A DNA stretch of 64,000 nt, from the NCBI RefSeq assembly GCF_023897015.1, contig NZ_JAMHFY010000014.1, forward strand, positions 62,001 to 126,000, written 5' to 3'. The stretch is from Desulfosporosinus nitroreducens (GTDB taxonomy: Bacteria > Bacillota > Desulfitobacteriia > Desulfitobacteriales > Desulfitobacteriaceae). The position numbers and the translations under genes were made by a program. The notes beneath the pieces were generated by a model. That model was not told the origin of the DNA and ran no database searches. It was given only the letters and a program-made list of their open reading frames with translations. This document shows, one piece after another, positions 15,449 through 41,038 of the stretch. The first letter of the stretch is position 1. Every line of letters begins with the position of its first letter.

Positions 15449-16099
15449 GTGAAGATTATTGCTCTTAACGGCAGCCCGCGAAAAACCTGGAATACAGCAA
15501 CCTTGCTGAACAAAGCTCTTGAAGGGGCTGCTTCCCAAGGAGCTGAAACTGAATTGATTCATCTCAATGATTTGAATTTCAAAGGGTGCATCAGCTGCTT
15601 TGCGTGTAAACGAAAAGACGGGCAGCATGGAAAATGTGCCATGAAGGATGATTTAGCAGAGATACTGAAAAAATTAGAAACAGTTGATGGGATTATTTTT
15701 GGTTCACCGATTTACTATATGAGCATTACAGCCGGTATGAGGGCACTTTTAGAGCGTTTCTTGTTTTCCCATAGCATCTATAATCCGGAAATACCAACAG
15801 TGTATCCCAGGAAAATCCCAGCCGGGTTTATCTATACTTTGAACGCATCAGAAAAACAAATCGAGCAATTTGGGCTTAAGCAAAGTTTAAATTTACATGA
15901 AATGATGATTGCCAAAACCATTGGAAATCCTCTTACAACTCTATACAGCTATGATACTTATCAATTTTCTGATTATGAAAAATATGAATCATCGATGTTC
16001 TCTGAAGAGGCTAAAGCAAAACAGAAAGCTGAACAATTTCCGCTTGACTGTCAAAGGGCTTTGGAAATGGGAATCAGGCTGGCATCCACTGAGATCTAA
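15449..16099 (+). CDS. NADPH-dependent FMN reductase/iron-sulfur flavoprotein family protein
   Basis: Encodes 216 residues from GTG 15449 (MKIIALNGSPRKTWNTATLL), with AAGGAGAG nine bases upstream; an upstream TTG at 15431 is before that site. The flavodoxin-like loop NGSPRKTWNT, the Cys cluster GCISCFACKRKDGQHGKCAM, and FGSPIYYMSITAGMRALLER are family marks. These flavoproteins reduce quinones or other electron acceptors. Next comes the ferredoxin-nitroreductase at 16225, so they are probably one operon under the divergent HxlR gene. Confidence 0.88.
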   Translation: MKIIALNGSPRKTWNTATLLNKALEGAASQGAETELIHLNDLNFKGCISCFACKRKDGQHGKCAMKDDLAEILKKLETVDGIIFGSPIYYMSITAGMRALLERFLFSHSIYNPEIPTVYPRKIPAGFIYTLNASEKQIEQFGLKQSLNLHEMMIAKTIGNPLTTLYSYDTYQFSDYEKYESSMFSEEAKAKQKAEQFPLDCQRALEMGIRLASTEI

Positions 16100-16224
16100 C
16101 AACAGGGGGATTTACCAAATTACTCATGATGAAAGGGAGACAAGAGCTTCCACATCAATATATCGGTAAGCATATGAAGAATTTACAAAAGTCCGAAAAA
16201 GAGGGAAGTAGGAGTGATGAATGT

Positions 16225-17046
16225 ATGAGTATGGATCTGATTCAAGTTAGCCAGGAAAAATGTATCCGCTGTGGAATCTGTGCAGAAATCTGTCCCACAG
16301 GAAGTATCATTATCGAAAACCAAATGCCCCAGGCCACAGAACGGAATTGTATTGCCTGTGGACACTGCGTAGCTGTGTGTCCTGTGGCGGCAATAGATAA
16401 CGTGAAGGCACCGATGGCCAAACAGTTGCCCCTTGAAAATGTACCTGTCCTTGACGCTGACACTGCAGCCCGCTTTCTCCGCTCCCGACGGTCTATTCGC
16501 CGCTACAAAGAAAATCCCGTACCCCGGGAAAAAATAGTGCAGCTCCTCGATATGGCGCGTTTGGCCCCAAGCGGAGGCAACACTCAGGGGATTGCTTATC
16601 TCGTCATTGATAACGCTGAAATACTAGGCAAAATAACGGCTGCTACAGTTGATTGGATGGAAGAACAATTAAAAAAGGGTTCTGCATGGGCACAGTATTA
16701 TAGGAGAGTGGTGGAAACTTATCGCCAAACCGGTCAAGATGTCATATTACGAAACGCTCCATGTCTGATTGTGGCTATGACTGCAAAGGACTTTCACCCC
16801 CGTGGACGGGATAATACCCATTTTTCCCTTGCATACGCTGAGCTCTACGCCCCGGCTATTGAATTGGGAACATGTTGGGCGGGATTCTTTGAAGGGTGCG
16901 CCTCTGCCAATTATCAGCCCTTGCTGAGTATCTTGAACCTGCCGGAAAACATGGTTGTCACCGGTGGATTGTTAGTAGGTTTTCCAAAGTATACTTATAA
17001 ACGATTAGTGGACAGAAATCCCTTGCAAGTGTCGTGGTGGGGCTAA
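16225..17046 (+). CDS. Ferredoxin-nitroreductase fusion
   Basis: Encodes 273 residues from ATG 16225 (MSMDLIQVSQEKCIRCGICA), with TAGGAG 10 bases upstream; longer frames lack a site. Two 4Fe-4S motifs, CIRCGICAEICP and CIACGHCVAVCP, occupy residues 13-60. A nitroreductase fold follows: SRRSIRRYKENPVPREKIVQ and LARLAPSGGNTQ-type FMN contacts, then GTCWAGFFEGCA near the end. Such proteins pass electrons from ferredoxin-like clusters to FMN to reduce nitro compounds or quinones. It shares an operon with 15449. Frame ends 50 bp before the right copy of the direct repeat. Confidence 0.9.
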   Translation: MSMDLIQVSQEKCIRCGICAEICPTGSIIIENQMPQATERNCIACGHCVAVCPVAAIDNVKAPMAKQLPLENVPVLDADTAARFLRSRRSIRRYKENPVPREKIVQLLDMARLAPSGGNTQGIAYLVIDNAEILGKITAATVDWMEEQLKKGSAWAQYYRRVVETYRQTGQDVILRNAPCLIVAMTAKDFHPRGRDNTHFSLAYAELYAPAIELGTCWAGFFEGCASANYQPLLSILNLPENMVVTGGLLVGFPKYTYKRLVDRNPLQVSWWG

Positions 17047-17097
17047 AGCAGCCCATATTCCGGTGAAAGTCTTCAAAATTGACCTCAACATGCAAAA

Positions 17098-17215
17098 CAC
17101 CAGAACAAATCGACTATCTTCAGAAGTTACTGGAATCGCTTAGTAAAGATTGATTTTTGGGCTTTTAGGGTACCTATAGGGTACCCTTTTATAGTTTAAT
17201 CTATCGAGAGTAGTC
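17098..17215 (+). repeat. 116-bp direct repeat, right copy
   Basis: Repeats the end of the Xre gene at 13941-14056 plus the GGGTACC terminator. It has no start codon here and is not a gene. The 3.0 kb between copies may have arrived or moved by recombination between such repeats. Confidence 0.85.
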
Positions 17216-17383
17216 ATGCTTGTTCGAAAATGGACGCCCCTTGCTATCGTTTTTAAAATATTTGGTGATTGGTGGAAGGAAAAGCAGGAAGTTCGGCGAA
17301 AAAGAAAATATACGTCAAATGATGTCCAAAAGACTGTTCGCTTGAAAATTGACTTAAAGCCAAAGACTTTGGGGGTTAAATAA
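17216..17383 (+). CDS. Short ORF, probable fragment
   Basis: Encodes 55 residues, MLVRKWTPLAIVFKIFGDWW to KIDLKPKTLGVK. The ATG is created at the repeat junction (AGTAGTC|ATG) and no ribosome site is seen. The basic, Trp-rich sequence looks like the tail of a longer protein. It ends with TAA directly before the ATG of the next gene (TAAATG), so it might have been its operon partner. Confidence 0.35.
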   Translation: MLVRKWTPLAIVFKIFGDWWKEKQEVRRKRKYTSNDVQKTVRLKIDLKPKTLGVK

Positions 17384-18469
17384 ATGCATTATATCGGAAT
17401 CGACTTAGCATGGACCTATGCCAATGAATCGGGAATTTGTGTGATCGCTGACAATGGGGAAATCGTCTATTGTGAGTCCCAGGTTTTCAGCGACGAAATG
17501 ATTGCGGACATCGTTGCAGAACATGCTCAAGAAGGAGCCATCGTAGGGATTGATGCTCCCCTAATCGTGAATAACGAAACAGGTTCCAGATACTGTGACG
17601 GAGCTATTATGAGAGAGAAAATTCATGGTAAGAATCTGTCCGTTTTCACCTGCAGTAAAAGCTTTATGCTCAACCACTTCGGAGTAGTTCGAGGAGAAGA
17701 GGTCGTCAAAGCCATTCGAAAGCGGATGCCGGCTTTTGCCCTCACCGGTGACCTAACCAATAAAAAGCACGTGATTATCGAAACCTTTCCCACGGGAATA
17801 ACTTTAGGCCTTTTTCCCGATGCTTTTCCTGTTAAATATAAAATCAAACATAAGATCAAATTTGAAACAACTAAAACGGAGATGGGCAGGATGGTTAACC
17901 TTTTAAAAAGGTTAAGTGATTTCAATCCCCCCGTCCATAATATAGAAGATTTCTTCAATCATTTATCGAGCATTCAAGCTATGTCTAAGAAGGGGTTTAA
18001 GAACCTTGAGGACAAGCTGGATGCTTTTTTATGTGCTTACGCCGCTTATTGGCTGGCCAAGCATCAGGGGAAGGTTTTCGGTGATGATCAGGATGGGTTC
18101 ATTACTATTCCAATAATAGACGAGAATGAGGTCCGTGACGGCAAATCAGAGAGGATACGAGTCTACAATAAACTGATTCGCGATAAGATACCCCAGATCA
18201 TCGAAGACAACGGCAAGAAAGCCATTATTGAAAAGGTTTCAGGCCCAGAATACCTGAATTTATTAAACGTCAAGTTAGGGGAAGAGCTTCAGGAGTACCT
18301 GGACAGCCAAAAGGTTGAAGAACTGGCGGATTTAGTTGAAGTCGTTTACGCCATCTTGAATTATGAAGGGGTCTCTCGGCAGGAATTCGAGGATATCAGA
18401 AAGCAAAAGGTCGAGGAGAGAGGCGCTTTCCGGGATAAGCCCCTGCTGAAAGAAGTAAGCGACAGTTGA
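17384..18469 (+). CDS. DUF429 (RNase H-like) and MazG-type pyrophosphohydrolase fusion
   Basis: Encodes 361 residues in two parts. Residues 1-250 are a DUF429 domain: MHYIGIDLAWTYANESGICV, IVGIDAPLIV, VIIETFPTGI, LEDKLDAFLCAYAAYWLAKH and GFITIPI, matching the conserved acidic residues of this predicted RNase H-fold nuclease. Residues 260-361 (YNKLIRDKIPQIIEDNGKKA, KLGEELQEYL, EELADLVEVVYAIL) form an all-alpha NTP pyrophosphohydrolase of the phosphoribosyl-ATP-pyrophosphatase-like MazG group with its E-x2-E...E-x2-D ladder. The two parts are common as separate proteins. The helicase gene starts 14 bp later, so they form an operon. Fusion of a nuclease-like and a nucleotide-hydrolysing domain beside a nuclease-helicase suggests nucleic-acid defence. 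Confidence 0.85.
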   Translation: MHYIGIDLAWTYANESGICVIADNGEIVYCESQVFSDEMIADIVAEHAQEGAIVGIDAPLIVNNETGSRYCDGAIMREKIHGKNLSVFTCSKSFMLNHFGVVRGEEVVKAIRKRMPAFALTGDLTNKKHVIIETFPTGITLGLFPDAFPVKYKIKHKIKFETTKTEMGRMVNLLKRLSDFNPPVHNIEDFFNHLSSIQAMSKKGFKNLEDKLDAFLCAYAAYWLAKHQGKVFGDDQDGFITIPIIDENEVRDGKSERIRVYNKLIRDKIPQIIEDNGKKAIIEKVSGPEYLNLLNVKLGEELQEYLDSQKVEELADLVEVVYAILNYEGVSRQEFEDIRKQKVEERGAFRDKPLLKEVSDS

Positions 18470-18483
18470 GGGGTTGAAGGGAA

Positions 18484-20751
18484 TTGACAGAAAAGATCAA
18501 GCAGAAGGGCAGCCTGGGCAGTGTCGCCAAAGACCTCTTCGTCGAGCTGTTTTGTGATACCTTTGGTCCGGATCAAGCGGAGTATCTGTTTCTTCAGTAT
18601 CCGGTCACCGATATTTATGGTAATAGACGCTCCATAGATTTTGCTCTGGAAAGTGAAGACTTAAAAATTGCCATTGAGATTGATGGTGAAACCTATCATA
18701 ACCCCAATAAGGTTTCTTCTAATAAATATTATGATGACCTTACCAAGCAAAACAGCCTGATCTATCATAACTGGAAGATTTACCGCTGGGTATACAATCA
18801 ATTGAAGCACCAACCTGAAAAGGTCAAGGACGAACTGCGGATTTTTGTCGGGGAAATACCCTCCTTCAGAATGCTGGAGGATTATCTGCCTAAGCAGAAG
18901 GGCAAGGTGATTGAACTGCGGGAACATCAACAAGCTGCTTTGGACAGCCTAGAGACCATGCGTGATCAAGGGGAGAGTATCGCTCTGCTTTATCATGCTA
19001 CCGGAACCGGAAAAACTGTGACCGCAGTCAGTGACGCCAAACGTCTGGGGAAACGAACCCTGTTTTTGGCTCATACCAAAGAACTAATAACCCAGGCTAA
19101 AGGTACCTTTGAAGAACTTTGGGATCAGGCGGAGACAGGTCTCTATTTTGCCGAAGAAAAAGCTAAAGACGCTTATGTTGTTTGCAGCAGCATTCAGAGT
19201 GCTGCCAGAAATCTGGAAGGGTTTAAACCGGAAGATTTCGGTTATATCATTGTCGATGAATGCCATCATGGAACGGCAGATACATATAGGAAGGTTTTGA
19301 GTTATTTCAAACCTGAATTCACTCTGGGTCTCACGGCTACCCCGGACAGAGCCGATGGCGAGAGCATCCTGGAGGACTTTAAGAACGTGGCCCATAAGCT
19401 GGATTTGCAGCAAGCCGTGGAATTAGGGGAACTTGTTCCCATCAGGTGTATCCGGGTCAAGACCAATGTGGATCTTTCCACGGTGAGAATCAATGGCATT
19501 AAATATTACGCTCAGGACTTAGAAAGTAAACTCTTTGTGCCGGAGAGAAATAAGCTTATAGCAGAAACCTATCTGAATTATGTTAGGAATAAGAAAACCG
19601 TGGTGTTCTGTGCTTCTGTAAACCACGCTCAGGAGATTTCAGCTTTATTTAAGGAAAAGGGAATTAATTGTGAGGCTGTTTCCGGTTCAATGAAGTCAGC
19701 AGAAAGGTCGAGGATTTTAGATCGTTATGAAAATGAGGATATCCAAGTCTTATGTGCCTGTGACCTTTTAAACGAGGGCTGGGACAGCCCGAAAACAGAA
19801 GTTTTGTTCATGGCTAGGCCGACGCTGTCCAAGACACTTTATGTTCAGCAGCTGGGACGGGGGATGCGCAAGTGCGCGGGTAAGGACTACCTGATGGTTT
19901 TTGATTTTATTGATAATGCGGGCTTGTTTAATATGCCCTACTCCCTACACAGGATGTTTAACCTGAAGGAATATAGGGCAGGAGAGTACGTTGTTGCTTC
20001 CCAGAAACAGTTTGAACTGGACAGAGATTTAATCGCCAGAGGAGAAAAGCCGTCTGTTTCTCTGGATTTCCCGGTGAATGCCGCGGATTACGAGCTGATT
20101 GATCTATTTAACTGGCAGGATGAAGTGAAAGGGATGATATCTCAGCTGGAGTTCGTAAGGATGGTTGATGTGCAAACAGAAACCATCGAACGGTACCTGC
20201 GTGAAGGAAAGATAACCCCTGATTTAGAGGTGCCTTTCGGGGATAAAAGGAACTTTAAATATTTTAAGGAAGCAACCGTGGAGAGCTATGCTAAACAGTA
20301 CGGCTGGGAGCTGATCAACCCTGCCAATATGAAAGATAGGTTTATGGACATGGTCAGGACGATGGATATGAGCTTTTCCTATAAGCCGATACTGCTCAAG
20401 GCCATGCTTGAGCATGTTGACGAAAAGGGAAGAGTTAAGGTCGAGGATATGGTTAATTACTACATGGACTTTTATAGGGCTAGAAAAGATAGCGGGCTGG
20501 TGGTTGAGAAGAAATCTAGCCTGTATTGCAAAGCCGGATATACGAGAAAGGATGTTGAGAGAAATATCTTTAGCAATCCTTTTAAGCGGTTTGAGGATAT
20601 GCGGTTTATGAGCCGGTGCCGGGATATTGAGTATGTGGAGTTTAATCGACATGTTTGGAAGAGGATGACTCAGGCGGATAAGGGCTGGATTGTTGGTTGG
20701 TGTGATGAGAAGTTGGAGGAGTATTATAGGAAGAGAATAATAAAGGGTTAA
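18484..20751 (+). CDS. SF2 DEAD/DEAH helicase with N-terminal endonuclease-like domain
   Basis: Encodes 755 residues from a TTG at 18484 (AAGGG site upstream). Residues 1-120 resemble a restriction-type PD-(D/E)XK fold of the DUF559/VSR kind: RSIDFALESEDLKIAIEIDG gives the D and E-x-D positions, then TYHNPNK. Residues 140-520 are an SF2 helicase: Walker A LYHATGTGKT, DECHH box at about 260, GLTATPDRADGE (motif III), motif V/VI region EGWDSPKTEVLFMARPTLSK and LGRGMRKC. The last 230 residues are unknown. It acts on DNA or RNA and is translated with the DUF429-MazG protein. A decayed helicase of another type occurs later in the window; the two are not close relatives. Confidence 0.9.
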   Translation: MTEKIKQKGSLGSVAKDLFVELFCDTFGPDQAEYLFLQYPVTDIYGNRRSIDFALESEDLKIAIEIDGETYHNPNKVSSNKYYDDLTKQNSLIYHNWKIYRWVYNQLKHQPEKVKDELRIFVGEIPSFRMLEDYLPKQKGKVIELREHQQAALDSLETMRDQGESIALLYHATGTGKTVTAVSDAKRLGKRTLFLAHTKELITQAKGTFEELWDQAETGLYFAEEKAKDAYVVCSSIQSAARNLEGFKPEDFGYIIVDECHHGTADTYRKVLSYFKPEFTLGLTATPDRADGESILEDFKNVAHKLDLQQAVELGELVPIRCIRVKTNVDLSTVRINGIKYYAQDLESKLFVPERNKLIAETYLNYVRNKKTVVFCASVNHAQEISALFKEKGINCEAVSGSMKSAERSRILDRYENEDIQVLCACDLLNEGWDSPKTEVLFMARPTLSKTLYVQQLGRGMRKCAGKDYLMVFDFIDNAGLFNMPYSLHRMFNLKEYRAGEYVVASQKQFELDRDLIARGEKPSVSLDFPVNAADYELIDLFNWQDEVKGMISQLEFVRMVDVQTETIERYLREGKITPDLEVPFGDKRNFKYFKEATVESYAKQYGWELINPANMKDRFMDMVRTMDMSFSYKPILLKAMLEHVDEKGRVKVEDMVNYYMDFYRARKDSGLVVEKKSSLYCKAGYTRKDVERNIFSNPFKRFEDMRFMSRCRDIEYVEFNRHVWKRMTQADKGWIVGWCDEKLEEYYRKRIIKG

Positions 20752-21266
20752 TTAAATATAGTTGATTAAGCCGCTATAGAAGCGATATTTGTGTTGGAAT
20801 TTAGGGAAGGGCAGTCCCTGCTGCGAGTGTAATAGAAATATGGAAACTTCGAAAAGGTAGACATGTGGTAAGAAATTCGGATCTGTGGATATGTTTCCTT
20901 GGACGGAGTACGTGGATACCTGTGTACTGCAATATACGGTAGGGGAAAAGGGAAAACAGGTAACGGTTGAGGTTGGAATGAATAAGTAAATGGAATATTC
21001 TCCTCATATTAAAGGCATCTGCTCAATGAAGGCAGGTGCTTTTCTACTTACCGTTACTCGACATATAGACTATAATAAAGAGGCATTTTACACAAGTTGA
21101 ATGTTAAATTTAGATTTATGTCGTAGTACTGTGGTAAAATATATTTTGTCTAAAATTAATCCAATTGACAAATTGTTTAGTATTGGTTACCGTTTAAAAA
21201 TGTAAGTTTTCACTCGACACCTATTCGTCAAAAAATGATAATTGTGTCATCATAGGAGGATAACAT
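20752..21266. other. Intergenic region: short coding scrap, terminator and promoter region of the four-gene cassette
   Basis: At about 20872-20989 the frame GKKFGSVDMFPWTEYVDTCV to VTVEVGMNK stop looks like the end of a lost gene. A hairpin ends the region of the helicase (21011-21043). The remaining 220 bp to the next gene are AT-rich, with TTGACA at about 21167-21172 but no clear -10 box 17 bases on; TAAAAAT-like boxes lie about 21190-21200. Confidence 0.4.
21011..21043 (+). terminator. Hairpin terminator between the two defence operons
   Basis: AAAGGCATCTGC and GCAGGTGCTTTT pair with one wobble and one bulge over TCAATGAAG, followed by TTTTC. It separates the DUF429-helicase operon from the four-gene cassette. 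Confidence 0.7.
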
Positions 21267-22433
21267 ATGGCGGAGAAAATAATGACTGTCTTGGCGAAGG
21301 AAACCGGAGGCAAAAGCTATAAGGCTCACAAATACGGACTTGATCACGCTGAACGCCCATTCATAGAATATGGAGATGATTCAATCATATGGAAAAAGAC
21401 CGCTGAGACTACTCCTCACCGCAAATATGTTTCTCTTGAAAATTTAGGAAAAAAACTTGCGGCAAGGAATGAGCAGTTGCTTACTTATTTTCTTGATGGT
21501 TCTCGTAGGGTGTTTAAAGTTGATGACATTGCCTATAAAGTGTCTAATGGCAGAAGTGTAATTTATCCAGTAATCGCTGGACAAATTGGAGTGGGCTGCT
21601 GTCGTAGAGTTAATAAGGCAGTCATTCCAGAGAAATTCAAACGAGAGATAGTACTGGCATTGCCAGATATTGCTGACGCTGACGGAATACCGGGTTTCTT
21701 TAATGCAACAGCCAAAAAGCTAAATGAATGTGCAGAGTTAAGACGGGTTGGTATAGAGTTTTCTACGATATTGCCATATAAAACAGCAAAGAATACAGAC
21801 AAGAAGTTTGAAGATAGGGGAACTGCGTGTATCCAAGACCGGATGATAGAACGTGAAAAAGAACTGGTCGCGGAGCTTGTTCGTGAGGGAAAGTTGAACC
21901 AAGATAACTATTTGGTTAAAGATGGTTCGCTTGAATATAAGCCAACCAAAGAGGACAAGGCTGACAAAAGGAAATACCAGATGTTCAAAAATAATTACAG
22001 TTGGGTATTAGGGGCCTCAAAGAATTTCAACCCAGAAGTATGTTTGGATATTAATGGGAAACCAAACCCGGGATTTATTGCTGACTTACCACTTTATCAC
22101 CGAACGCCTGTAGCCTGTTTTGTTAGCGATTTTTTAGGTGATGATATCCAGTTTGCGGTGTGGTACATCCGACTTAGGGATAAGAAACGGACCCGAACTC
22201 CTTTTGATGGAATATTGAAAGTCGAGAAAATTCTCGTGACACAAGAAGATGTTGACAATGGCATAGATAGTGACCTTGTAGATGTGCTTAGTGCGTACTT
22301 GATAAACGAACGAAATCCTGTTTGCTATGGTTCAGATTTGCGTTGGGCGAATCACATCTATCCTGTATATCTCACTGAGTCTTTTGTGAAGTCAAAATAC
22401 CTGAGTACAGAAAGTTTTCTGCATCTATTTTGA
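21267..22433 (+). CDS. NurA-like nuclease, first gene of a four-gene cassette
   Basis: Encodes 388 residues; ATG 21267 with AGGAGGATAAC. NurA marks are visible: YFLDGSRRVFKVDD (the DGS acidic site, residues about 72-86), a second acidic site LVKDGSLEYKP near 219-229, a Lys in WVLGASKNFNPE, FAVWYIRLRDKKR, and HIYPVYLTESFVKSKY near the end. NurA is a DNA end-trimming nuclease that works with the HerA translocase; the next gene encodes a HerA-like protein, which strongly supports the call. The long middle region (IYPVIAGQIGVGCCRRVN and the K/E-rich 190-250) departs from archaeal NurA. There are no close paralogues in the window. Confidence 0.75.
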   Translation: MAEKIMTVLAKETGGKSYKAHKYGLDHAERPFIEYGDDSIIWKKTAETTPHRKYVSLENLGKKLAARNEQLLTYFLDGSRRVFKVDDIAYKVSNGRSVIYPVIAGQIGVGCCRRVNKAVIPEKFKREIVLALPDIADADGIPGFFNATAKKLNECAELRRVGIEFSTILPYKTAKNTDKKFEDRGTACIQDRMIEREKELVAELVREGKLNQDNYLVKDGSLEYKPTKEDKADKRKYQMFKNNYSWVLGASKNFNPEVCLDINGKPNPGFIADLPLYHRTPVACFVSDFLGDDIQFAVWYIRLRDKKRTRTPFDGILKVEKILVTQEDVDNGIDSDLVDVLSAYLINERNPVCYGSDLRWANHIYPVYLTESFVKSKYLSTESFLHLF

Positions 22434-22448
22434 GGAGGATTAAAATTA

Positions 22449-24179
22449 ATGAATAGTAAAAATAAACTGATCGGGCGTGTACTTGCCACCGAAAAAACAC
22501 CGACCACAATGGATAAGTTCAACTTCTGGACAAACTCAGATTTGAAGCTTCATGCGTTCGATATAGTTAAAGTTAAACATATTGACAACTCGTTTTCGTT
22601 TGGTATGATTGAGAATATCTCTCATATAACCGACGCCCAGAGCTTTTTAACCAATTTCATCTCCAGCGACTTCGGAGATGTTAATGTCGAAGAGCCAACT
22701 TTGCGCGTAGGGATGAATTATGCTGAAGCAGCTATATCTTTTAACGATAAAAATCTTTATACTCCTGTTCATAATAACGCCCCAGTATATCTGGCTACAG
22801 CTGAAGAAATAACTATGGCATTGGGGCTTGACAAAGTTCAGAACCCTCTTGTTTGCGGTTCGCTGAAAATGTATGAGGGAACCACTGACGAGATTACCTT
22901 GCCTGTGAATCTCAATTCGAAATTCATACTGGGTCCCGAGGGCGCACATCTAAATATCTCAGGTATTTCAGGACTTGCATCTAAGACGTCATACGCTATG
23001 TTTCTGATGAAAGCTATTCAAGACCATTACATCATAAAAGCCGATATCGATACCAATGATAGTGTTGCTTTTGTTATTTTTAATGTCAAAGGCAAAGATC
23101 TTATGGCAATTGATAGACCCAATGACTTTATTGCCGACAAACCAGGTGAAAAAGAAAGAGTTTTTGCTGACTATGAAACCCTTAAACTTTCCACGGAGCC
23201 GTTCAAGAACGTCAAATACTATATTCCGTTTTCAAGCAATACATCAGCAAAAAGAAGCACCTATCTTGGCGCAGATGATGTAAAGGCATATATGGAATAT
23301 AAACAACTTAAAAAATTCAAATATTCGTATGAAGATGATAAGGAAAGCCTTGAAATGTTGTTTGCAGATGTTGATGACCCACAACAAACAATGGAGTCGA
23401 TAATTAGTAAAATTATTGATGATTTGGACCCTGATTTTGGTGGTGGGCGCGTTGTAACATGGCAAGACTTCAGAGATAAGGTAAATGAGCTTTCGCAAAG
23501 GTCGCAACCTTCAACAAAAGGTCAGCAAAGGGTTTCTAATGAAATATCTGTGCTTAGTTGGAGAAAGTTTAAACGTATTATCAACAAAGCAACTAAAAAT
23601 GATGATATGTTTGCAAATCGTCCAGATCAAAGCAAGCATGAATGCCGTTTGGCGGACGCTTTAAAACACATAAGTAAAAACGAGGTTTGTGTTATTGATG
23701 TTGCTAAACTACCTGAGGACAAACAAGCATTTGTTTTTGGAGACGCGGTGCGTACAATTTACAATTTGAAATTGGGTGAATATGACGGCGATGATGGCGT
23801 TAATCCACCATCGAGAATCATTGTATTCATTGACGAACTCAATAAATACGCCTCCAAAGAGACTCCAAAGACATCACCAATTTTGAGGGAAATTTTGGAT
23901 GTCACCGAACGTGGTCGCTCGCTCGGCGTTGTGCTTTTTGGTGCTGAACAGTTCCGTTCTAATATACATCAGCGAGTCACCGGCAATTGTTCTACTCACG
24001 CATATGGTCGAACAAACTCTATTGAAACTGCCACCAAGGATTACGGGAGTTTACCGAGTACGTATAAAAACATGTTGACTAGATTAGAACAGGGAGATTA
24101 TCTAGTTCAAAATCCAATTTTCCGCTCCTTGCTGAAAATAAAATTTCCAAAACCGATTTATAAGCAATTCAAGGATTAA
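22449..24179 (+). CDS. HerA-like ATPase/translocase
   Basis: Encodes 576 residues and starts 15 bp after the nuclease gene, with GAGGAGG. Residues 1-140 form an N-terminal HAS-barrel-like part (IGRVLATEKTPTTMDKFNFW). The ATPase domain starts near 155: KFILGPEGAHLNISGISGLA then SKTSYAMFLMKAI is a variant Walker A with SKT in place of GKT, and ASRIIVFIDELNKYA is Walker B. LFGAEQFRSNIHQRVTGNCS carries the conserved sensor/arginine region. A 60-residue insertion around 285-345 (YKQLKKFKYSYEDDKESLEM) is helical. HerA forms a hexameric ring that moves DNA and feeds NurA. The altered Walker A is notable; hydrolysis may still work because the Lys and Thr remain. Confidence 0.85.
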   Translation: MNSKNKLIGRVLATEKTPTTMDKFNFWTNSDLKLHAFDIVKVKHIDNSFSFGMIENISHITDAQSFLTNFISSDFGDVNVEEPTLRVGMNYAEAAISFNDKNLYTPVHNNAPVYLATAEEITMALGLDKVQNPLVCGSLKMYEGTTDEITLPVNLNSKFILGPEGAHLNISGISGLASKTSYAMFLMKAIQDHYIIKADIDTNDSVAFVIFNVKGKDLMAIDRPNDFIADKPGEKERVFADYETLKLSTEPFKNVKYYIPFSSNTSAKRSTYLGADDVKAYMEYKQLKKFKYSYEDDKESLEMLFADVDDPQQTMESIISKIIDDLDPDFGGGRVVTWQDFRDKVNELSQRSQPSTKGQQRVSNEISVLSWRKFKRIINKATKNDDMFANRPDQSKHECRLADALKHISKNEVCVIDVAKLPEDKQAFVFGDAVRTIYNLKLGEYDGDDGVNPPSRIIVFIDELNKYASKETPKTSPILREILDVTERGRSLGVVLFGAEQFRSNIHQRVTGNCSTHAYGRTNSIETATKDYGSLPSTYKNMLTRLEQGDYLVQNPIFRSLLKIKFPKPIYKQFKD

Positions 24180-24208
24180 CAAACAATTAAAGTGAGAGGA
24201 GTGAATTA

Positions 24209-25798
24209 ATGTACCAATATGTTTTCGGTGCAAATATATTAGAGAATCTTACGACAGGAATGTACCAAGATTCAAGAGTCATTTATCGCGAGTATATACA
24301 GAATGCATGTGATCAAATTGACAAGGCAGAACGCGACGGACTCTTGCTTCGAAGTGAAGGACGAATTCATATCTGGCTTGATCCCGATAGGCGTATAATC
24401 ACTATCGAAGATAATGCAACTGGAATTCCGGCCTCTGATTTTCAGAAAACTTTAGGTAACATTGCTGATTCTGATAAGAAAATAGGTGAAGATAAAGGTT
24501 TTCGTGGTATTGGTAGACTATGTGGGCTTGCTTATTGTAGAGAATTGGTTTTTACATCGACTGCAAAAGGCGAAACTATTATCTCCACTATGCGCTGCAA
24601 TGCTCGAAAAATGCGTGAATTGATTGTTGCAAATAGCAAAGGTGAAAAACATACTGCAAGTGATGTTCTTCATTCTATAAACGAATTTACGACTGAAGAC
24701 AAGGCGAATCCCAATGATCATTGGTTTAAGGTTGAACTTGTTGGTATTAATGATGCAAATACTGACTTGCTTGATTTTGCACAAATAAAGGAATACCTGT
24801 CTTTTGTGGCTCCTGTTCCATATATAAACACTTTTATATTCCGAAAAGAGATTCATAAACATGCTGAAGAAATAAAGTATAATATTGATGAATATGATAT
24901 CACGCTGAATGGTGAAGCAGTGCTCAAGAAGTATAAGACGAACTTTAAAACCTCCAAAGGCGATGATGAAATTTTTTCTATCGAATTTAAAGATATCAGA
25001 GATTTAGATGGGAATCTTCTCGCATGGATTTGGTGGGGTGTATCGCGTTTCAAGGCGTCTATTAATAAGGATTGCCAAATGCGAGGTCTTCGCTTGCGTA
25101 AAGAGAATATTCAGATAGGTGACGACGACGCACTGCAAAAACTATTCAAAGAAGACCGGGGGCATCATTATTTTATTGGCGAAGTTTTTGCTGTGGCAAA
25201 AGACCTAATACCTAACTCACAGAGAGATTACTTTAATGAAAATGAAACACGTAATCGATTTGAACGAGAACTTAAACTCTATTTTAATGATGAACTCAAA
25301 AGTATATATTATGGCGGTTCTGCCATAAATAGTGCGTTTGATAAGATAGATAACTTCGCAAAAAAAGAAGCAGAGTTTAAGGAAAAAGAAGCGAATGGCG
25401 TGTTCGTTGATACCGCACACAGAGAAGCAGAACTCGATGAAATTAAGAAAGCAAAATCCAAAGCCGAAGAAGCAAAAAAAGAAATTGAAAAGAAAAAGCA
25501 AAAGGCTGATGAAAAAGATAATAACGTCATGGGAAGGTTAATTGAACGTATTGAAACGGAACGCACTAAAAAACCACATATAGTAATAAGTGCAAAACCG
25601 CCCGAACCAGATACTACAAAGGACACCAAAATTCCGTGGAGAACGGATAAGCTATCAAATTACAGTAAAAAAGAACGGAAACTTATTTCAAAAATATTCG
25701 GCATTATTGTTACATCTACGAACAAAGAGATAGCTGAAACTATAATTCAAAAGATCGAGGGCGAACTGCAAAATGAATCGAAGAGTGTTGCTCATTGA
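24209..25798 (+). CDS. Hsp90-like GHKL ATPase
   Basis: Encodes 529 residues, 29 bp after the HerA gene, AGAGGAG site. The N-terminal ATP fold of Hsp90/Gyrase B/MutL type is clear: YREYIQNACDQIDKAE (N-box with E and N), ITIEDNATGIPASDF (G1 box), and GEDKGFRGIGRLCGLAYC (G2 box). A transducer-like domain follows to about 370, then a long coiled coil (395-440, EAELDEIKKAKSKAEEAKKE) and a Lys-rich tail. The length and layout resemble prokaryotic MORC/Hsp90-like proteins found in conflict systems. Such ATPases act as clamps on DNA or protein. It overlaps the radical SAM gene by 26 bp, so the two are coupled. Confidence 0.82.
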   Translation: MYQYVFGANILENLTTGMYQDSRVIYREYIQNACDQIDKAERDGLLLRSEGRIHIWLDPDRRIITIEDNATGIPASDFQKTLGNIADSDKKIGEDKGFRGIGRLCGLAYCRELVFTSTAKGETIISTMRCNARKMRELIVANSKGEKHTASDVLHSINEFTTEDKANPNDHWFKVELVGINDANTDLLDFAQIKEYLSFVAPVPYINTFIFRKEIHKHAEEIKYNIDEYDITLNGEAVLKKYKTNFKTSKGDDEIFSIEFKDIRDLDGNLLAWIWWGVSRFKASINKDCQMRGLRLRKENIQIGDDDALQKLFKEDRGHHYFIGEVFAVAKDLIPNSQRDYFNENETRNRFERELKLYFNDELKSIYYGGSAINSAFDKIDNFAKKEAEFKEKEANGVFVDTAHREAELDEIKKAKSKAEEAKKEIEKKKQKADEKDNNVMGRLIERIETERTKKPHIVISAKPPEPDTTKDTKIPWRTDKLSNYSKKERKLISKIFGIIVTSTNKEIAETIIQKIEGELQNESKSVAH

Positions 25799-27632
25799 GC
25801 CAGATTATAAAAATAAATATCCACCTATGGGGTTAATGAAATTAGCCACATACTATCGTCGCCTTGAAGATGATGTGCGATTCTTTAAGGGAAATCTTAA
25901 AGAGTTTGCTGCAAGGCTCCTTTGTGAGGAATTTTTTGATGAAGTTGGAGATGCTTCTCTTGGCAAACACTTTCCTAAACTGATTGAACACATTAAGACG
26001 GGAAAATATGCTCCATTAGATGCTATCCCCGACTTTCGGAATAGCGAGTTAGAGAGAAAAATTAAAGTATATCGCCTTCGGTACAAGGCTGAGGACTTTC
26101 CGAAATTTGACATAGTAGGCATTACTACGCTGTTTACTTTTTACTGGAGTAAAACGGTTGACACAATTAACTATGCAAAGAATTTTTGTAAGCACGACGG
26201 TAGAATGCTCGTGGGAGGTATTTCGTCAACCATTTTGCCAGATGAAATTATAAAAGAAACTGGAATTGACCCTCATAAAGGGTTGTTAAACGCACCCGGA
26301 ATTTTAGATAACGACAATAAAGATATCATTGATGAATTGCCGTTAGATTACTCTATCCTTGATGAGATAGATTATAAGTATCCCGCAAATAATGCGTACT
26401 TTGGTTACATGACGAGGGGCTGTGTAAATAAGTGTGAATTTTGTGCTGTGCCAAGACTTGAACCGGATTACAAGGATTATATAGCTCTAAAACAACAAAT
26501 CAAGGAGACAGAAGAACGCTTCGGTGCACAAAAAGACCTTCTTTTAATGGACAATAACGTATTTGCATCAAAATGTTTTGATGGAATTATTGATGAAATA
26601 AAAGAATGTGGATTTGCGAAAGATGCAACGTATATGCCCCCAAGTGAGTATAGCCTCGCCATAGATAATCTGAAAGCTAATTATAATATTAGAGCGTATA
26701 GAAAAAAGATGATTGGAATCTATGACCGTCTTTCAAAAAAAATGAGCGAAGAAGACGCTGGCGACTTCTATCGCAAACGGGAAAAGCTAAATTTACTGTA
26801 CGCCGAAGTGGCAACAAAAGACAATATCCTTGCTTTTGACGACACAGTTCGCCCACTGTATGATAAAGCTTTTAGAAACATGAGACGTGCACGCTATATT
26901 GATTTTAACCAGGGTGTCGACGCAAGATTGGTCACTGACGCAAAAATGGCAAAACTATCAGAAATCAATATTCGCCCGCTTCGTATCGCATTTGACCATT
27001 ATTCTATGAATAAGGTTTATATAAAGGCGATAAAATCAGCAGCTAAACACGGTATTACCGACCTTTCAAACTATCTACTTTATAACTATCAAGACAAGCC
27101 GGAAGAACTATACTATCGAATGAGGATTAACATAGATCTTTGTGAAGAACTTGGCGTCACAATTTACTCATTTCCAATGAAGTACCATCCGATTGATGAC
27201 CCAACTTATTTCCGCAATCGTGATTACATTGGAGATAAATGGAACCGTAAGTTTATTCGTGCAATACAAGCTGTACTTAATGCTACAAAAGGTAAAATTG
27301 GCCGTGGCAAAGCATTTTTTGAGGAAGCGTTTGGAAAGGATATTGATGAATATAATAAAATTCTTTGGATGCCAGAAGCATTTATTATTTACCGCCGAAA
27401 GTACGATGAAGAACTTCGGACTCGACTTGCGGAAAAATACCAAAGTCATTATGATGATGAAAGTAATCTTGTGAACGAATGGTGGGATAAATTCAACGCT
27501 CTCGACGAGAAACAATTGCAAGTTGCCAAAGATATAATCGCGAGGAACCGATTTGCATACGAGGATATTGAACATTGTCGGGATAAGTTTGTGCGTGAAG
27601 TATTGGAGTATTACCGGATAAAGAGAGATTGA
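25773..27632 (+). CDS. Radical SAM protein with B12-binding-like N-terminal domain
   Basis: Encodes 619 residues; start ATG 25773 lies inside the previous gene. RVLLIEPDYKNKYPPMGLMK and the later DIVGITTLFTFYWSKTVDTI resemble the Rossmann-type cobalamin-binding domain of B12 radical SAM enzymes, though the usual DxHxxG cobalamin ligand was not seen. GYMTRGCVNKCEFCAVPRLE gives the CxxxCxxC cluster at about residues 215-222. LLLMDNNVFASKCFDGIIDE and YIDFNQGVDARLVTDAKMAK match later TIM-barrel positions. It should make an adenosyl radical; the substrate is unknown. An about 80-residue insertion (300-385) interrupts the barrel. No other radical SAM gene occurs in the window. Confidence 0.85.
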   Translation: MNRRVLLIEPDYKNKYPPMGLMKLATYYRRLEDDVRFFKGNLKEFAARLLCEEFFDEVGDASLGKHFPKLIEHIKTGKYAPLDAIPDFRNSELERKIKVYRLRYKAEDFPKFDIVGITTLFTFYWSKTVDTINYAKNFCKHDGRMLVGGISSTILPDEIIKETGIDPHKGLLNAPGILDNDNKDIIDELPLDYSILDEIDYKYPANNAYFGYMTRGCVNKCEFCAVPRLEPDYKDYIALKQQIKETEERFGAQKDLLLMDNNVFASKCFDGIIDEIKECGFAKDATYMPPSEYSLAIDNLKANYNIRAYRKKMIGIYDRLSKKMSEEDAGDFYRKREKLNLLYAEVATKDNILAFDDTVRPLYDKAFRNMRRARYIDFNQGVDARLVTDAKMAKLSEINIRPLRIAFDHYSMNKVYIKAIKSAAKHGITDLSNYLLYNYQDKPEELYYRMRINIDLCEELGVTIYSFPMKYHPIDDPTYFRNRDYIGDKWNRKFIRAIQAVLNATKGKIGRGKAFFEEAFGKDIDEYNKILWMPEAFIIYRRKYDEELRTRLAEKYQSHYDDESNLVNEWWDKFNALDEKQLQVAKDIIARNRFAYEDIEHCRDKFVREVLEYYRIKRD

Positions 27633-27650
27633 TATTCAAGATATATGTAC

Positions 27651-27696
27651 TCGGCGGAACAGCTTACGGGCAGTCACTTTTTGTCGTTTCGCGTAG
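27651..27696 (+). repeat. TCGGCGGAAC inverted-repeat element, copy at end of the cassette
   Basis: TCGGCGGAAC at 27651-27660 begins the same element as at 41039. It lies 18 bp after the radical SAM stop codon and exactly at the left edge of the DUF1998 scrap, so it marks a break point. The right arm is degenerate (GTCGTTTCGCGTAGG). Confidence 0.8.
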
Positions 27697-27875
27697 GTTC
27701 CATGACCCTCCACAGTCATGGGCAAGGACGTGAATCACTCAACTTTGCGGCTTGCCATGCTTGTGCGCTGTTACCGGAAACGTGCTGTGAAGAACGCAAC
27801 GGTTTCCTCGATAGAGGACTTATTGTTGGTACGTATGGGGATAAAGGTCTTGGTTTTTATAAGGAGCTGCTGTGA
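27697..27875 (+). pseudogene. C-terminal scrap of a DUF1998 (DrmB-like) protein
   Basis: The frame reads SLNFAACHACALLPETCCEE then RNGFLDRGLIVGT, which is the conserved zinc-type end of DUF1998 proteins (ACHACxLLPETSCExxNxFLDRxLLVG), such as DrmB of DISARM and helicase-associated proteins. Only about 50 codons are left and the upstream part is replaced by the inverted-repeat element. It suggests a further defence system once stood here. A hairpin with arms GAGAGGTATT/AATGCCTCTC follows at about 27908-27941. Confidence 0.8.
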
Positions 27876-28183
27876 GGCAGTAAATGGTGACTGGATTAAT
27901 GTAAAGGAGAGGTATTATCCCCTGGGACAATGCCTCTCTCTCGCTTTTCCGTAGCGGTTTAGGGTATAGATCAACACGTTTCTTAACCCTCTCCCTTAAG
28001 CTGTGTGGGAATTAGCTGATTTCAGAGTCACTATGGTTATTATGATTTAATGACAAAAGAAGTTGAATGGAATTAAAGTGCTCAGCATGCTAAAATGGAT
28101 GTTACAATATCAGTTCTTAGAACGAAATCCTAATCTAGTGGACATAGTCTTCTAAAATGATGATATATGAGGAGGATGCGTAC
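27876..28183. other. Intergenic region before the dGTPase gene
   Basis: Holds the hairpin at about 27908-27941 and otherwise AT-rich DNA. No certain promoter; TAAAAT near 28091 and TTGAAT near 28063 are too far apart for a standard pair. Confidence 0.4.
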
Positions 28184-29617
28184 ATGTCTGAAATTCTCAT
28201 GAAATGTATTGATTTGGAGAAGAGCAAAAATGGGCTAATTAAAAAATGGGGGTATAAGCATCCGGAGAAGTTATATGAAGAAGAGACTTACAGAACAAAT
28301 TTTCGAAGACAAAGAGATAGAATTTTGTATACCGGTGGTTTCAGACGATTGCAAGATAAAACGCAAGTAATATCTGCAATGAAATCCGGAGACCATAGAA
28401 CCAGGTTAACCCATACTCTAGAAGTTGAGCAAATAGCAATAAGTCTATCAGATGCGCTAGGATTAAACTCAGACTTAGTATCTGCTATAGCTTGCGGACA
28501 TGATGTCGGGCATACTCCCTTTGGACATGCAGTTGAAAGAGCCCTAAATAAAAAACTTAACAAGCAAGGTGGCTTTTCACATGCAATTCAGAGTGTAAAA
28601 TACTTAAACGAGAAAATGAGAAAAGACAAAACGCCGAAAAAAGTCCAAAAGCTACAAGATTTAATATTTGAAGGGATTCTCAAACATGACACTGATGTGT
28701 ACGTAGGAGATTATGATAATAGGCAATGGGACTGTTCACAATATAAACTGGATGAAGCGGGCACGTTGGAAATGCAGGTTGTTTATTGGGCGGATAAAAT
28801 TGCGTACCTCACACATGATTTTGAGGATTTTTATAACACTGAAATATACTTACATGCAAAAAAAAATTACCCTCAGCTTGAAGTAGAGTTAAAGACTATC
28901 TTGGCAGAGTTAACAAAAAACCCCAAAATTAAGAAGAATATAAAGCTTTTTGAGACAAGAAATTTGATACGAAATATTATTGCTCAGCTCATTGATCAAA
29001 GTAAAAAAAATATTAAGTCAAAAACTTTAAAACCCAATGGTATTAGAATAGAAACTACACGACTGATAAAAGAAGAAGAATTAAAGCAAGCAAAAAAAGA
29101 GAAAGAAGATTCTGCAGTTGAAGTGAATTATGTTGAATATTTAGAAGTTAACAAAATAAAAGAACTAGAAGCTCAATTAGAAGACATTAAAAAGCGTAAC
29201 GACAAAGACCAACAAGAATTAGTTGACAGCACAATTAAGACTGTTAAAAAAATAAAAAAGAATGCGTATATGGATTGTTTAATGATAAACTTTACCGATG
29301 AGTATAGAAAAAACTATAAGGAACTAAGAAAACTTCTAGATGATTATTATATTTTTAGTCCTGAAATAACGAGATCTGATGCAAAAGCAGAAAAAATAGC
29401 AAATTGTTTATTTGATGATTTTGTTGCGAACATCAGGTTGTTGCCATTAAATATTCGAAAACGTATAAAAGATAAAGATAACAATAACGATAACGAACCA
29501 GTTGGAGCCAACTCGAAAGAGAGAATTGTCGCGGATTATATTGCAAGTATGACTGATAGGTATGCAGAAGTTATTTACACAGATTTGAACGCAATCGGTG
29601 GAAACTACGACTATTAG
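28184..29617 (+). CDS. HD-domain dNTP triphosphohydrolase (dGTPase-like)
   Basis: Encodes 477 residues from ATG 28184 (MSEILMKCIDLEKSKNGLIK) with GAGGAGG; an ATG at 28157 lies before that site. The HD metal site is clear: RTRLTHTLEVEQIA (first His), IACGHDVGHTPFGHAVERAL (HD pair and second His), then YWADKIAYLTHDFEDF (last Asp). These enzymes split dGTP into deoxyguanosine and triphosphate. An unusual Lys/Glu-rich coiled coil of about 70 residues (KEEELKQAKKEKEDSAVEVN) is inserted near 295-365. dGTPases that drain nucleotide pools are known phage-defence effectors. The next gene begins 17 bp later, so the pair is one operon. Confidence 0.88.
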   Translation: MSEILMKCIDLEKSKNGLIKKWGYKHPEKLYEEETYRTNFRRQRDRILYTGGFRRLQDKTQVISAMKSGDHRTRLTHTLEVEQIAISLSDALGLNSDLVSAIACGHDVGHTPFGHAVERALNKKLNKQGGFSHAIQSVKYLNEKMRKDKTPKKVQKLQDLIFEGILKHDTDVYVGDYDNRQWDCSQYKLDEAGTLEMQVVYWADKIAYLTHDFEDFYNTEIYLHAKKNYPQLEVELKTILAELTKNPKIKKNIKLFETRNLIRNIIAQLIDQSKKNIKSKTLKPNGIRIETTRLIKEEELKQAKKEKEDSAVEVNYVEYLEVNKIKELEAQLEDIKKRNDKDQQELVDSTIKTVKKIKKNAYMDCLMINFTDEYRKNYKELRKLLDDYYIFSPEITRSDAKAEKIANCLFDDFVANIRLLPLNIRKRIKDKDNNNDNEPVGANSKERIVADYIASMTDRYAEVIYTDLNAIGGNYDY

Positions 29618-29634
29618 AGTGAAGGTGTATACAA

Positions 29635-31047
29635 ATGGAAAAAAAAGATATGTTGAAAGATGACAAGTTGCATAATATTGTTGAAAAAAATTTAGGCAAC
29701 GTTGCTCAATTCATTAGTTTTTCTCCCATAAAGGAAGAAGGGCTAAAGTATGTCCATATAAGCAAATATAGACATTCGGATATGTGTAACATCCGTTTAC
29801 TGATTGAAAAGTTGATAGAAGCCTCATCATATAAGGCTGTAAATATTAGAAGCTTTAGTCCTGAAATGATGAAAGGTAACAGATTTGTTTATAACAAGAG
29901 CATCGAAGATTTAGATGAAATTATAAGTATAATTGAAGAAAATGCTGCTAATGGAAAGTACTCAATAGTTAATGAAAATATTGATGTCAATGATGGCGGT
30001 GTGTCAGGTGTAGTGCTGGGGGATATTATTGAGTTCTCACCAAATGACACACCAAAGTGCGTTGATAAGGAAGGGGTTTGCTCTTTACCCAGAGATATTG
30101 GAATGGCCCTATTGGAGAAAGTCTATGGTTTTAGACCAGAGGTGAATTTTGGTACAGATTACAGGGTCGAATTTAGTATCCATCCGCATAGACAGGGGAC
30201 TGAAAAACAACACACTATTATTTGGGAATACGAGCGATTTGAGAATGCAATTTCAAATAAAGAAATAATATGGCCTAATAATTTCTCGAAATTTATTGGG
30301 GATAAGACATTTGGTCTTCTCATAGCAGATATTTTAGGTCTAAAGGTTCCCAAAACAACAGTTTTAGCCAGAAATGTTGCACCTTTTACGTATGGAAAAT
30401 CTACTGGCTTAAATGAAGTATGGATAAGGACTTGCCCGGTTATTAAGGAACCGGGGAAATATTATACCGGAGATAAATGGATCGATCCGTTTGATCTGAT
30501 GAACAAAGAGGAGCAAAAAGGTGAAAATCCCATAAATATTGCTTCTATAATGTCTCAGAATGCTGTTGAATCTATTTATTCCGGAGGATGCATTATCAAA
30601 AAAGACCCTCAGGATGATATTATCGAAGGGGTTTTTGGAAAAGGTGATGCATTTATGATTGGTCAAGGAAGTATTGAAAAGTTGCCGCGTGAGATTATTC
30701 AAAAAGTTAAAAAGCTCAATAGCAAAATTAGAAGTCATTATAAACAGCTAGGTGAAGTATCTATTGAGTGGGTGTATGATGGGAAAGATGTTTGGGTTGT
30801 TCAACTTAATCAGATTAAAGTAAATAGTTCTCAAAATGTCATTGTTGAAGGCTCTCCAGAAAAATATATTCAGTTTAATGTGAACAAAGGATTAGAGGAG
30901 CTTCGAAAGACTATAAAAGAGTTAAATGAAACCGGTATTGGCATTGAATTGATAGGCAATATTGGGATAACCAGTCATTTTGGTGACTTATTACGTTTAG
31001 CAAATATTCCTTCTAGGCTAGTAGTAAAATCCAAAGTCGGGTTGTAA
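29635..31047 (+). CDS. Unknown protein with a PPDK-type ATP-grasp-like C-terminal part, partner of the dGTPase
   Basis: Encodes 470 residues. The first 200 residues (FISFSPIKEEGLKYVHISKY) are not recognised. Near 375-400, LGEVSIEWVYDGKDVWVVQL then NQIKVNSSQ has the pattern of the last strand and metal-binding end of the pyruvate-phosphate dikinase N-terminal ATP-grasp domain (xxIEWxxxxxxxxxLQxRPI), here with LNQIK in place of the usual RPI. GDAFMIGQGSIEKLPREIIQ precedes it. If right, it would use ATP to modify a substrate. Alternatively it is a sensor partner. The call rests on a short resemblance. It is in one operon with the dGTPase. Confidence 0.45.
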   Translation: MEKKDMLKDDKLHNIVEKNLGNVAQFISFSPIKEEGLKYVHISKYRHSDMCNIRLLIEKLIEASSYKAVNIRSFSPEMMKGNRFVYNKSIEDLDEIISIIEENAANGKYSIVNENIDVNDGGVSGVVLGDIIEFSPNDTPKCVDKEGVCSLPRDIGMALLEKVYGFRPEVNFGTDYRVEFSIHPHRQGTEKQHTIIWEYERFENAISNKEIIWPNNFSKFIGDKTFGLLIADILGLKVPKTTVLARNVAPFTYGKSTGLNEVWIRTCPVIKEPGKYYTGDKWIDPFDLMNKEEQKGENPINIASIMSQNAVESIYSGGCIIKKDPQDDIIEGVFGKGDAFMIGQGSIEKLPREIIQKVKKLNSKIRSHYKQLGEVSIEWVYDGKDVWVVQLNQIKVNSSQNVIVEGSPEKYIQFNVNKGLEELRKTIKELNETGIGIELIGNIGITSHFGDLLRLANIPSRLVVKSKVGL

Positions 31048-31211
31048 TAGCAAAGCTAATGGTATTGCGGGGCAATAATAGAAGCTATGAAGTGTGTGGT
31101 ATAATTGCCCCACACTTTACCTTTAGTGCCATTTTCAACTACAATAACCTTCCCAACTGAAGAAATCTTTGATTTGTCTGGAGAAGGATTCCCTGCGGTC
31201 AACCTTCTTAC
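31048..31211. other. Gap after the dGTPase operon with a hairpin
   Basis: GGGGCAAT near 31068 pairs with ATTGCCCC near 31101-31111 over a long loop, a weak terminator. The frame VPFSTTITFPTEEIFDLSGE near 31120-31190 looks like a short coding scrap. Confidence 0.4.
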
Positions 31212-31283
31212 TCGGCGGAACAGCTTACGGGCAGTCACTTGTTGTCGTTCCAGGAACCTGCACGGAACGACAAGTTCCGCCGA
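31212..31283 (+). repeat. TCGGCGGAAC inverted-repeat element, long form with nested arms
   Basis: Outer arms TCGGCGGAAC (31212-31221) and GTTCCGCCGA (31274-31283) are perfect. Inside are TTGTCGTTCC and GGAACGACAA, also perfect. The 72-nt unit folds into a long hairpin. Confidence 0.88.
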
Positions 31284-31411: not shown

Positions 31412-31627
31412 GTCTGCTCATTTCAAGTTCATATTGCCGAATCATATGTAATATCTGCGTATTCTCATGCACTCAAGAATGCCACCATTAAGCTTAAATT
31501 AAACGATATTGAACAGACGGATTTGTTTTATTACAGCTCTTCAGCCGCATTTGTGCTCGGCGGAACATGCTTACGGGCAGTTACTTTTTGTCGTATAATT
31601 ATAGGTGGTTCGATAAAGTTATATTGA
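31412..31627 (+). pseudogene. Coding scrap of unknown gene, cut by the inverted-repeat element
   Basis: The frame has no start codon at its left. It gives HIAESYVISAYSHALKNATI and KLNDIEQTDLFYYSSSAAFV, then runs into the repeat at 31557 (LGGTCLRAVTFCRIII). The sequence before the repeat has the look of real protein; what follows is translated repeat. Family unknown. Confidence 0.4.
31557..31593 (+). repeat. TCGGCGGAAC element, partial copy
   Basis: TCGGCGGAACATGCTTACGG then GCAGTTACTTTTTGTCGT; the right arm is missing. It abuts a coding scrap on its left. Confidence 0.75.
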
Positions 31628-40917: not shown

Positions 40918-41038
40918 TATCAGGATAATGATTTGCAAAACAGTTATATAACACAATTTAACGCTATTTTTTCATAACCCGGTTCATAAGGCGCATAGAA
41001 CACATTTCCTCGCACATTGTGCTGCTGTCCTGATGTAC

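Follow-up and report, generated by a model that had tools for sequence, protein, structure and literature searches.

Gene content of the cassette

We analysed a 64,000-nucleotide stretch of DNA from Desulfosporosinus nitroreducens (assembly GCF_023897015.1, contig NZ_JAMHFY010000014.1, positions 62,001 to 126,000 of the forward strand), referred to here as the window, which carries a compact cassette of four genes designated A to D. These are predicted to encode a NurA-like nuclease (A), a bacterial-type HerA ATPase (B), a GHKL-S5 ATPase (C) and a class B radical S-adenosylmethionine (SAM) enzyme (D). Open reading frame (ORF) calls in the window place all four on the same strand, with gaps of 15 bp between A and B and 29 bp between B and C and an overlap of 26 bp between C and D. 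An earlier reading of the letters without database searches (the sequence-only reading) had described this arrangement and the signature motifs of each product, and both agree with the ORF and motif coordinates that we verified in the window (Table 1). Comparison with a 95 % identical copy at locus L014 indicated strong purifying selection, with ratios of nonsynonymous to synonymous substitution rates (dN/dS) of 0.05 for A, 0.04 for B and 0.11 for both C and D, and a radical SAM gene 98 % identical to gene D is present in Desulfosporosinus sp. HMP52.

Table 1 Predicted genes of the cassette and flanking features, in window coordinates
Feature	Position	Strand	Details
Gene A: NurA-like nuclease	21267-22433	+	388 amino acids; LDGS 21492-21503, KDG 21918-21926
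Gene B: bacterial-type HerA translocase ATPase	22449-24179	+	576 amino acids; Walker A GISGLASKTS 22962-22991, Walker B DELNK 23832-23846
Gene C: Hsp90/MORC-like GHKL-S5 ATPase, C-terminal coiled coil	24209-25798	+	529 amino acids; N box (REYIQN) 24287-24313, G1 (DNATG) 24410-24424, G2 (GFRGIGR) 24497-24517
Gene D: predicted class B (B12-binding-type) radical SAM enzyme	25773-27632	+	619 amino acids; CVNKCEFC 26421-26444
Exchangeable block: cassette with little else	20889-27711		96 % identical in Desulfosporosinus G006; replaced in complete genome G007
Upstream flank: DUF429 gene (17384-18469) and helicase with weak N-terminal nuclease (restriction endonuclease) match	17384-20751	+	Profile searches
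Downstream flank: dGTP triphosphohydrolase and phosphoenolpyruvate-utilising-like gene, outside cassette	28157-31047	+	TIGR01353 181 bits, cut-off 152

The product of gene B matches Deinococcus radiodurans HerA (PDB 7f6d) with E values of 6.8e-41 (phmmer) and 2.2e-50 (profile), the profile covering both the HAS-barrel N-terminus and the RecA/FtsK-like ATPase of that structure with the P-loop and DELNK motifs aligned, and by sequence it is a bacterial-type HerA. The sequence-only reading had labelled its Walker A motif a variant; the motif is present but the label does not hold, as D. radiodurans HerA has GISGVATKTS as its P-loop at the same place in the profile alignment, a form that is normal for the bacterial branch of the family. 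Gene A directly precedes the HerA gene. The window protein gave no direct above-threshold match to Pfam NurA and its match to drNurA is weak (E 0.74), while the first genes of NurA-HerA-Mre11-Rad50 operons themselves match Pfam NurA only below the cut-off. Gene A does align with these first genes (hhalign 96 %, E 3.9e-9), and its acidic catalytic residues are conserved, with D77, E197, D219 and H363 invariant among 25 aligned homologues. Together the profile match to an operon relative, the position before HerA and the invariant residues suggest that A is NurA-like. We also observed a divergent NurA-HerA pair with neither GHKL nor radical SAM gene directly after a 1127-amino acid ORF on viral contig 3300045912_000930 (L173:5704-8743).

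Gene C had been described as Hsp90-like, a description that stands for the GHKL and S5 fold and fails for the chaperone architecture. Gene C matches Pfam HATPase_c_3 at 1.1e-9 and its predicted structure, with a predicted local distance difference test (pLDDT) score of 89.6, compares with known structures at VIA Z scores of 24.8 for Hsp90 N+M, 21.8 for SMCHD1 and about 20.7 for MORC3/4. In the model a long coiled coil follows the middle (S5) domain in place of the Hsp90 C-terminal domain, an architecture resembling that of MORC and paraMORC. A full HtpG chaperone with its C-terminal dimerisation domain was rejected, since gene C scores 37 bits against a cut-off of 371 and has the coiled coil instead. 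The GHKL and S5 ATPase module is shared with MORC, but the MORC-specific S5 motif GhXhhpXXRhl was found in none of 56 operon copies of gene C, which is therefore termed MORC-like or paraMORC-like and not MORC.

The predicted structure of gene D (pLDDT 93.9) consists of an N-terminal Rossmann domain of the B12-binding type and a radical SAM barrel. AprD4 (VIA Z 16.4), MgmA (16.1), TsrM (14.8), OxsB and MiaB span 14.5-16.4 against this model, which thus has the fold of a class B radical SAM enzyme and is predicted to bind cobalamin. A viperin-like signal enzyme is the less likely reading in this listing, in which viperin-like enzymes reach a Z of about 10. The B12-binding family PF02310 scores 18.5 for the window protein, below its cut-off of 32.1, and 34.8, above it, for the homologue at L117. 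The three cysteines of the CxxxCxxC cluster are the only invariant cysteines of gene D.

Conservation and mobility of the operon

We scanned GTDB genomes with a profile of gene D and recovered 80 species loci, 55 of which contain intact A-B-C-D in the same order and on the same strand with median gaps of 12, 12 and -1 bp; the four genes form one conserved operon. In fifteen of the other 25 loci the contig extends less than 5 kb beyond D on the upstream side. The remaining loci comprise one interrupted by an insertion sequence that separates B from C (L070), three with frameshifts in C or at another place (L080, L086 and L098), C-D only (L091 and L107), D beside a different GHKL gene (L095), D alone adjoining clpB (L049 and L063) and a weakly HNH-like gene in place of C (L072). 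In 56 of 56 operons A, B and D keep every catalytic motif, the HerA P-loop and DELNK and the CxxxCxxC cluster included, and C keeps its motifs in 47 to 56 operons, depending on the motif. The hosts belong to at least eight phyla (Bacillota, Synergistota, Planctomycetota, Chloroflexota, Chlorobiota, Spirochaetota, Cloacimonadota and that of one methanogenic archaeon), although many are metagenome bins and individual host labels may be wrong. We additionally noted a protein of 265-279 amino acids in or next to the cassette at L226 (upstream of NurA), L220, L233, L237, L238 and L072:9162-9998, which sometimes replaces part of C and in L072 shows weak HNH similarity.

The four families had been proposed to form one module in a defence-like setting, and their co-occurrence across genomes agrees with this. 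Among 397 Lachnospiraceae genomes gene A is found in 9, B in 8, C in 10 and D in about 12, and all four occur together in 8 (2 %), one copy being split over two contigs. Each gene is rare in this family, and the association of the four is far beyond chance. HerA of the cassette family is present in 30 of 189 Selenomonadaceae genomes (about 16 %), and 25 of 28 HerA places in this family have D or part of D beside A-B, with two more ending inside C and one consisting of A-B only. The divergence of the four genes is tightly correlated in pairwise comparisons (r 0.86-0.91, Mantel 0/500).

The cassette behaves as an exchangeable, defence-like block that moves horizontally. The complete sister genome G007 is syntenic with window positions 14906-20733 and then carries an operon of 498, 220 and 804 amino acids instead of the cassette, and no HerA of the cassette family was found anywhere in that genome. 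In a tree of D no fewer than seven changes are required for the Bacillota label, and the two copies from Desulfosporosinus are placed apart. The neighbouring families found most often include resolvases, recombinases and Mob genes. At 1e-8, 239 PADLOC models, those for AbiE and pAgo among them, were matched by 140 cassette-neighbour proteins of other species and 12 by 140 control proteins from the same genome set away from the cassette, a comparison that counts families rather than proteins, is inflated by AbiE models and gives a ratio of indicative value only.

Profile matches of the neighbours bear out the nuclease-helicase and dGTPase flanks expected from the sequence-only reading. The upstream flank is not part of the cassette because it is present also in G007, which lacks the cassette; the DUF429 gene within it has a match (2.8e-49) to PDC-S44, a single-gene system that PADLOC lists as a candidate. 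Further downstream, past the dGTPase genes, positions 32819-36022 encode a 1067-amino acid helicase of the superfamily 1 type with a match to PADLOC MkoC (3.1e-67). A short repeat just 3′ of the cassette (27647-27711) recurs at 31209-31283, 31556-31594 and 41035-41081 and in the genomes of relatives, and may mark block boundaries.

The C-D pair and a model for the cassette

Genes C and D lie side by side, in many cases with a short overlap of a few bases, and together form a portable core that can be combined with interchangeable effectors, A-B being one of these. On alphaproteobacterial plasmids and proviral contigs the D-C pair is preceded by an SNF2 helicase resembling ZorD, DpdE and DrmD together with either a DGQHR gene of the DndB family or ParB-like genes, and a PIN-domain gene and its partner, a second GHKL gene, often adjoin the module. 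In Lachnospiraceae locus L203 (DrmA 3.5e-168, DrmB 6.9e-48) and in a viral contig (L176/L182) it accompanies DrmA, DrmB and two helicases. No DNA methyltransferase motif came up when 38 kb of genome G443 and the fetched parts of the other D-C examples were searched crudely for such motifs. The core is found on alphaproteobacterial plasmids, in phages and viral contigs and beside integrases. Phages and Synergistales also carry D with no accompanying C, and short homologues of D (phrog_9298) are dispersed among phages, some of them adjoining ParB-like genes.

A number of further associations were observed around D-type and GHKL genes. Two viral contigs, UViG_2820327087_000001 (L117:6342-10588) and 3300009826_000002 (L119), share one gene order, in which a Csf2-like type IV Cas7 (PADLOC 2e-89 in L117) is followed at a short distance by a radical SAM gene of the D family and a 415-amino acid gene. 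ParB-like proteins adjoin D-type radical SAM genes on prophage-like contigs and in an archaeal virus (L110:6251-7936, L111:6361-7926 and L027:7585-8757). On four alphaproteobacterial plasmids (L022, L023, L024 and L025) the module of DGQHR, radical SAM and GHKL genes is adjoined by a PIN_8-domain protein paired with a GHKL paralogue of its own, which suggests a separate two-gene system. A protein of 224-267 amino acids with a FIDxLG start motif and no Pfam hit precedes a second GHKL paralogue at L070:11844-17820, where a DdmD-like helicase follows (PADLOC 6e-38), and at L051, L055, L062, L069, L095, L015, L187 and L188, and this pair is possibly another GHKL-based conflict system.

From this context a role of the cassette in defence or against mobile elements appears probable. 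As to how it would act we tentatively favour, over any single alternative, a horizontally moving system of the restriction-modification kind, in which D would place a chemical mark on the cell's own DNA and C would close on DNA as a dimeric clamp, checking for the mark or for the structure of an invader's DNA. Where the mark is missing, C would license the hexamer of HerA (B), and this would then drive the DNA into the nuclease NurA (A) for degradation. The effector end of this model is well founded because HerA-NurA of archaea and D. radiodurans is a DNA-pumping resection nuclease (PMC12977600, PMC9960219), and both DNA degradation by the cassette pair and clamp action by its GHKL protein are inferred from such family biochemistry. 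According to Iyer et al. 2008 (PMC2292703), GHKL-S5 ATPases of the paraMORC type reside in restriction-modification operons, where ATP-driven DNA looping was proposed to link recognition with cleavage. In those operons the modifying role falls to a methylase, and the only candidate for it in the cassette is the radical SAM protein.

That D modifies DNA is, on this context, nearly as plausible as not. A DNA mark is the simplest reading because D-C accompanies DISARM-like effectors in the place that one would expect a methyltransferase to take, because it also pairs with the DndB family, and because D is an orphan in phages. The sequence-only reading had left a choice between a modification and a signal, and the contexts favour modification of DNA (or protein) over a viperin-like signal. 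D alone in phages and Synergistales is what orphan modification enzymes would look like. Wherever the contig continues, B-anchored searches recovered intact A-B-C only with an adjacent D, while loci with D and no C do exist, an asymmetry that fits a self-protecting D without proving it.

Several observations weigh against the model. No DNA mark was detected in this analysis, and we know of no radical SAM enzyme that installs a DNA mark in any defence system. Among the enzymes that D resembles most in structure, MgmA acts on proteins (it is a protein glutamine methylase), AprD4 and TsrM on small molecules and MiaB on RNA, and an orphan D would fit other roles as well. Marinitoga camini virus 1 carries a short D homologue beside NurA-HerA, thus A-B-D without C, and L226 retains A-B but neither C nor D. 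Three Selenomonadaceae loci lost the end of C and the N-terminus of D in one change that also put an extra gene between the two, which is not the order that a self-protecting enzyme predicts. The limits of the PADLOC neighbour comparison count on the same side. An argument that C always decays before D was dropped, as the first loci had been selected on D and the B-anchored set holds these three joint losses.

The strongest alternative, which we judge rather unlikely overall, retains the defence role without a DNA mark. D would modify a protein such as C, HerA or NurA, or make a small signal, arming or restraining the clamp, while C would sense the DNA structure of the invader directly and HerA-NurA would remain the effector. 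A protein substrate, by analogy with MgmA, is a serious rival, given that this methylase is among the closest folds to D, that C and D are adjacent and often overlap, and that intact C was not seen without D in the B-anchored searches where the contig continues. However, D occurs without C and with unrelated partners (ParB-like proteins and type IV Cas7), so no single protein substrate is always present, and the small-signal version is disfavoured by the lower scores of viperin-like enzymes. An improbable alternative is a DNA repair or recombination module in which HerA-NurA resects broken ends, C is a MutL-like organiser and D repairs a DNA lesion. The most distant HerA relatives accompany Mre11-Rad50-like genes, and resection is the activity established for the archaeal and D. 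radiodurans pairs (PMC12977600, PMC9960219). Patchy presence, as in the Lachnospiraceae, transfer between phyla, replacement by other conflict-type genes at a variable site, defence-rich neighbours and the pairing of D-C with DISARM-like genes all speak against repair. Least probable is a maintenance or competition module that plasmids, integrative elements and prophages use against rivals or to shield their own DNA, as the mobile locations of the D-C core might suggest, but many intact A-B-C-D copies lie on long contigs with ordinary host genes nearby, and this reading overlaps with the marking model without excluding it.

Returning to the marking model, we consider it possible, with more reserve than for the model itself, that a cobalamin-type radical SAM enzyme writes a mark beyond the chemistry of methyltransferases that a MORC-like clamp reads, this reader-writer core being combined with three or more sets of effectors that are unrelated to one another (NurA-HerA, DrmA-DrmB and SNF2-ParB/DndB). 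If so, radical SAM chemistry would join methylation, phosphorothioation and deazaguanine insertion as a label of self DNA, common bacteria of the gut, the rumen and the environment would harbour a DNA modification yet to be discovered, and the cassette would represent an undescribed bacterial route for telling own from invading DNA. Gene C is another bacterial relative of eukaryotic MORC, and the genes that accompany it give a hint of the way in which clamps of this kind select DNA.

Comparison with known systems

Multi-gene systems joining nuclease, ATPase and modification functions are already known, while the four-gene combination has no named match. No model of PADLOC-DB 2023, NCBIfam June 2026 or Pfam corresponds to the cassette, although its HerA is so frequent in the Selenomonadaceae sampled, and the searched literature describes no such cassette, as the sequence-only reading had supposed, although unpublished, subscription-only or newer lists could hold it. 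Matches of cassette proteins to DUF4882, mad8 and Csm5 were judged spurious or generic ATPase matches.

In DISARM the likeness is confined to the DrmA and DrmB that accompany D-C elsewhere; the window cassette is without DrmA, DrmB and methyltransferase, and no DISARM model scored above noise for its four proteins. Dnd and Dpd systems likewise join DNA modification to nuclease or helicase effectors, and DndB-family DGQHR genes accompany D-C in the plasmid variants; DndA-E, DpdA and 7-deazaguanine genes were absent from the cassette and the nearest neighbours tested. In HerA-DUF4297 and Sir2-HerA a HerA-family ATPase also drives an anti-phage effector, but the partner here is NurA-like and not DUF4297 or SIR2, two extra genes are present, and the PADLOC HerA model matches the cassette HerA only at E 0.001.

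Bacterial NurA-HerA, of D. radiodurans and of the NurA-HerA-Mre11-Rad50 operons, shares the gene pair, the HerA P-loop and DELNK and the acidic motifs of NurA, with Mre11-Rad50 in the latter replaced in the cassette by the GHKL ATPase and radical SAM enzyme. Among phage and plasmid sequences searched with HerA alone, those on plasmids were mostly of the Mre11-Rad50 type, a different operon from the cassette. MORC/paraMORC operons (PMC2292703) also combine a GHKL and S5 ATPase with nuclease, helicase and modification genes and are patchy and laterally moving. They use DNA methylases and superfamily 2 helicases, whereas the cassette has radical SAM and HerA-NurA, none of which is mentioned in the parts of that paper covered here or came up in a term search of a follow-up (PMC8011034). 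The class B radical SAM enzymes MgmA, TsrM, AprD4 and OxsB share with D the Rossmann B12-type domain, the radical SAM barrel and CxxxCxxC, but at about 10-18 % identity, and D adds a helical insertion, a C-terminal domain and linkage to DNA nucleases.

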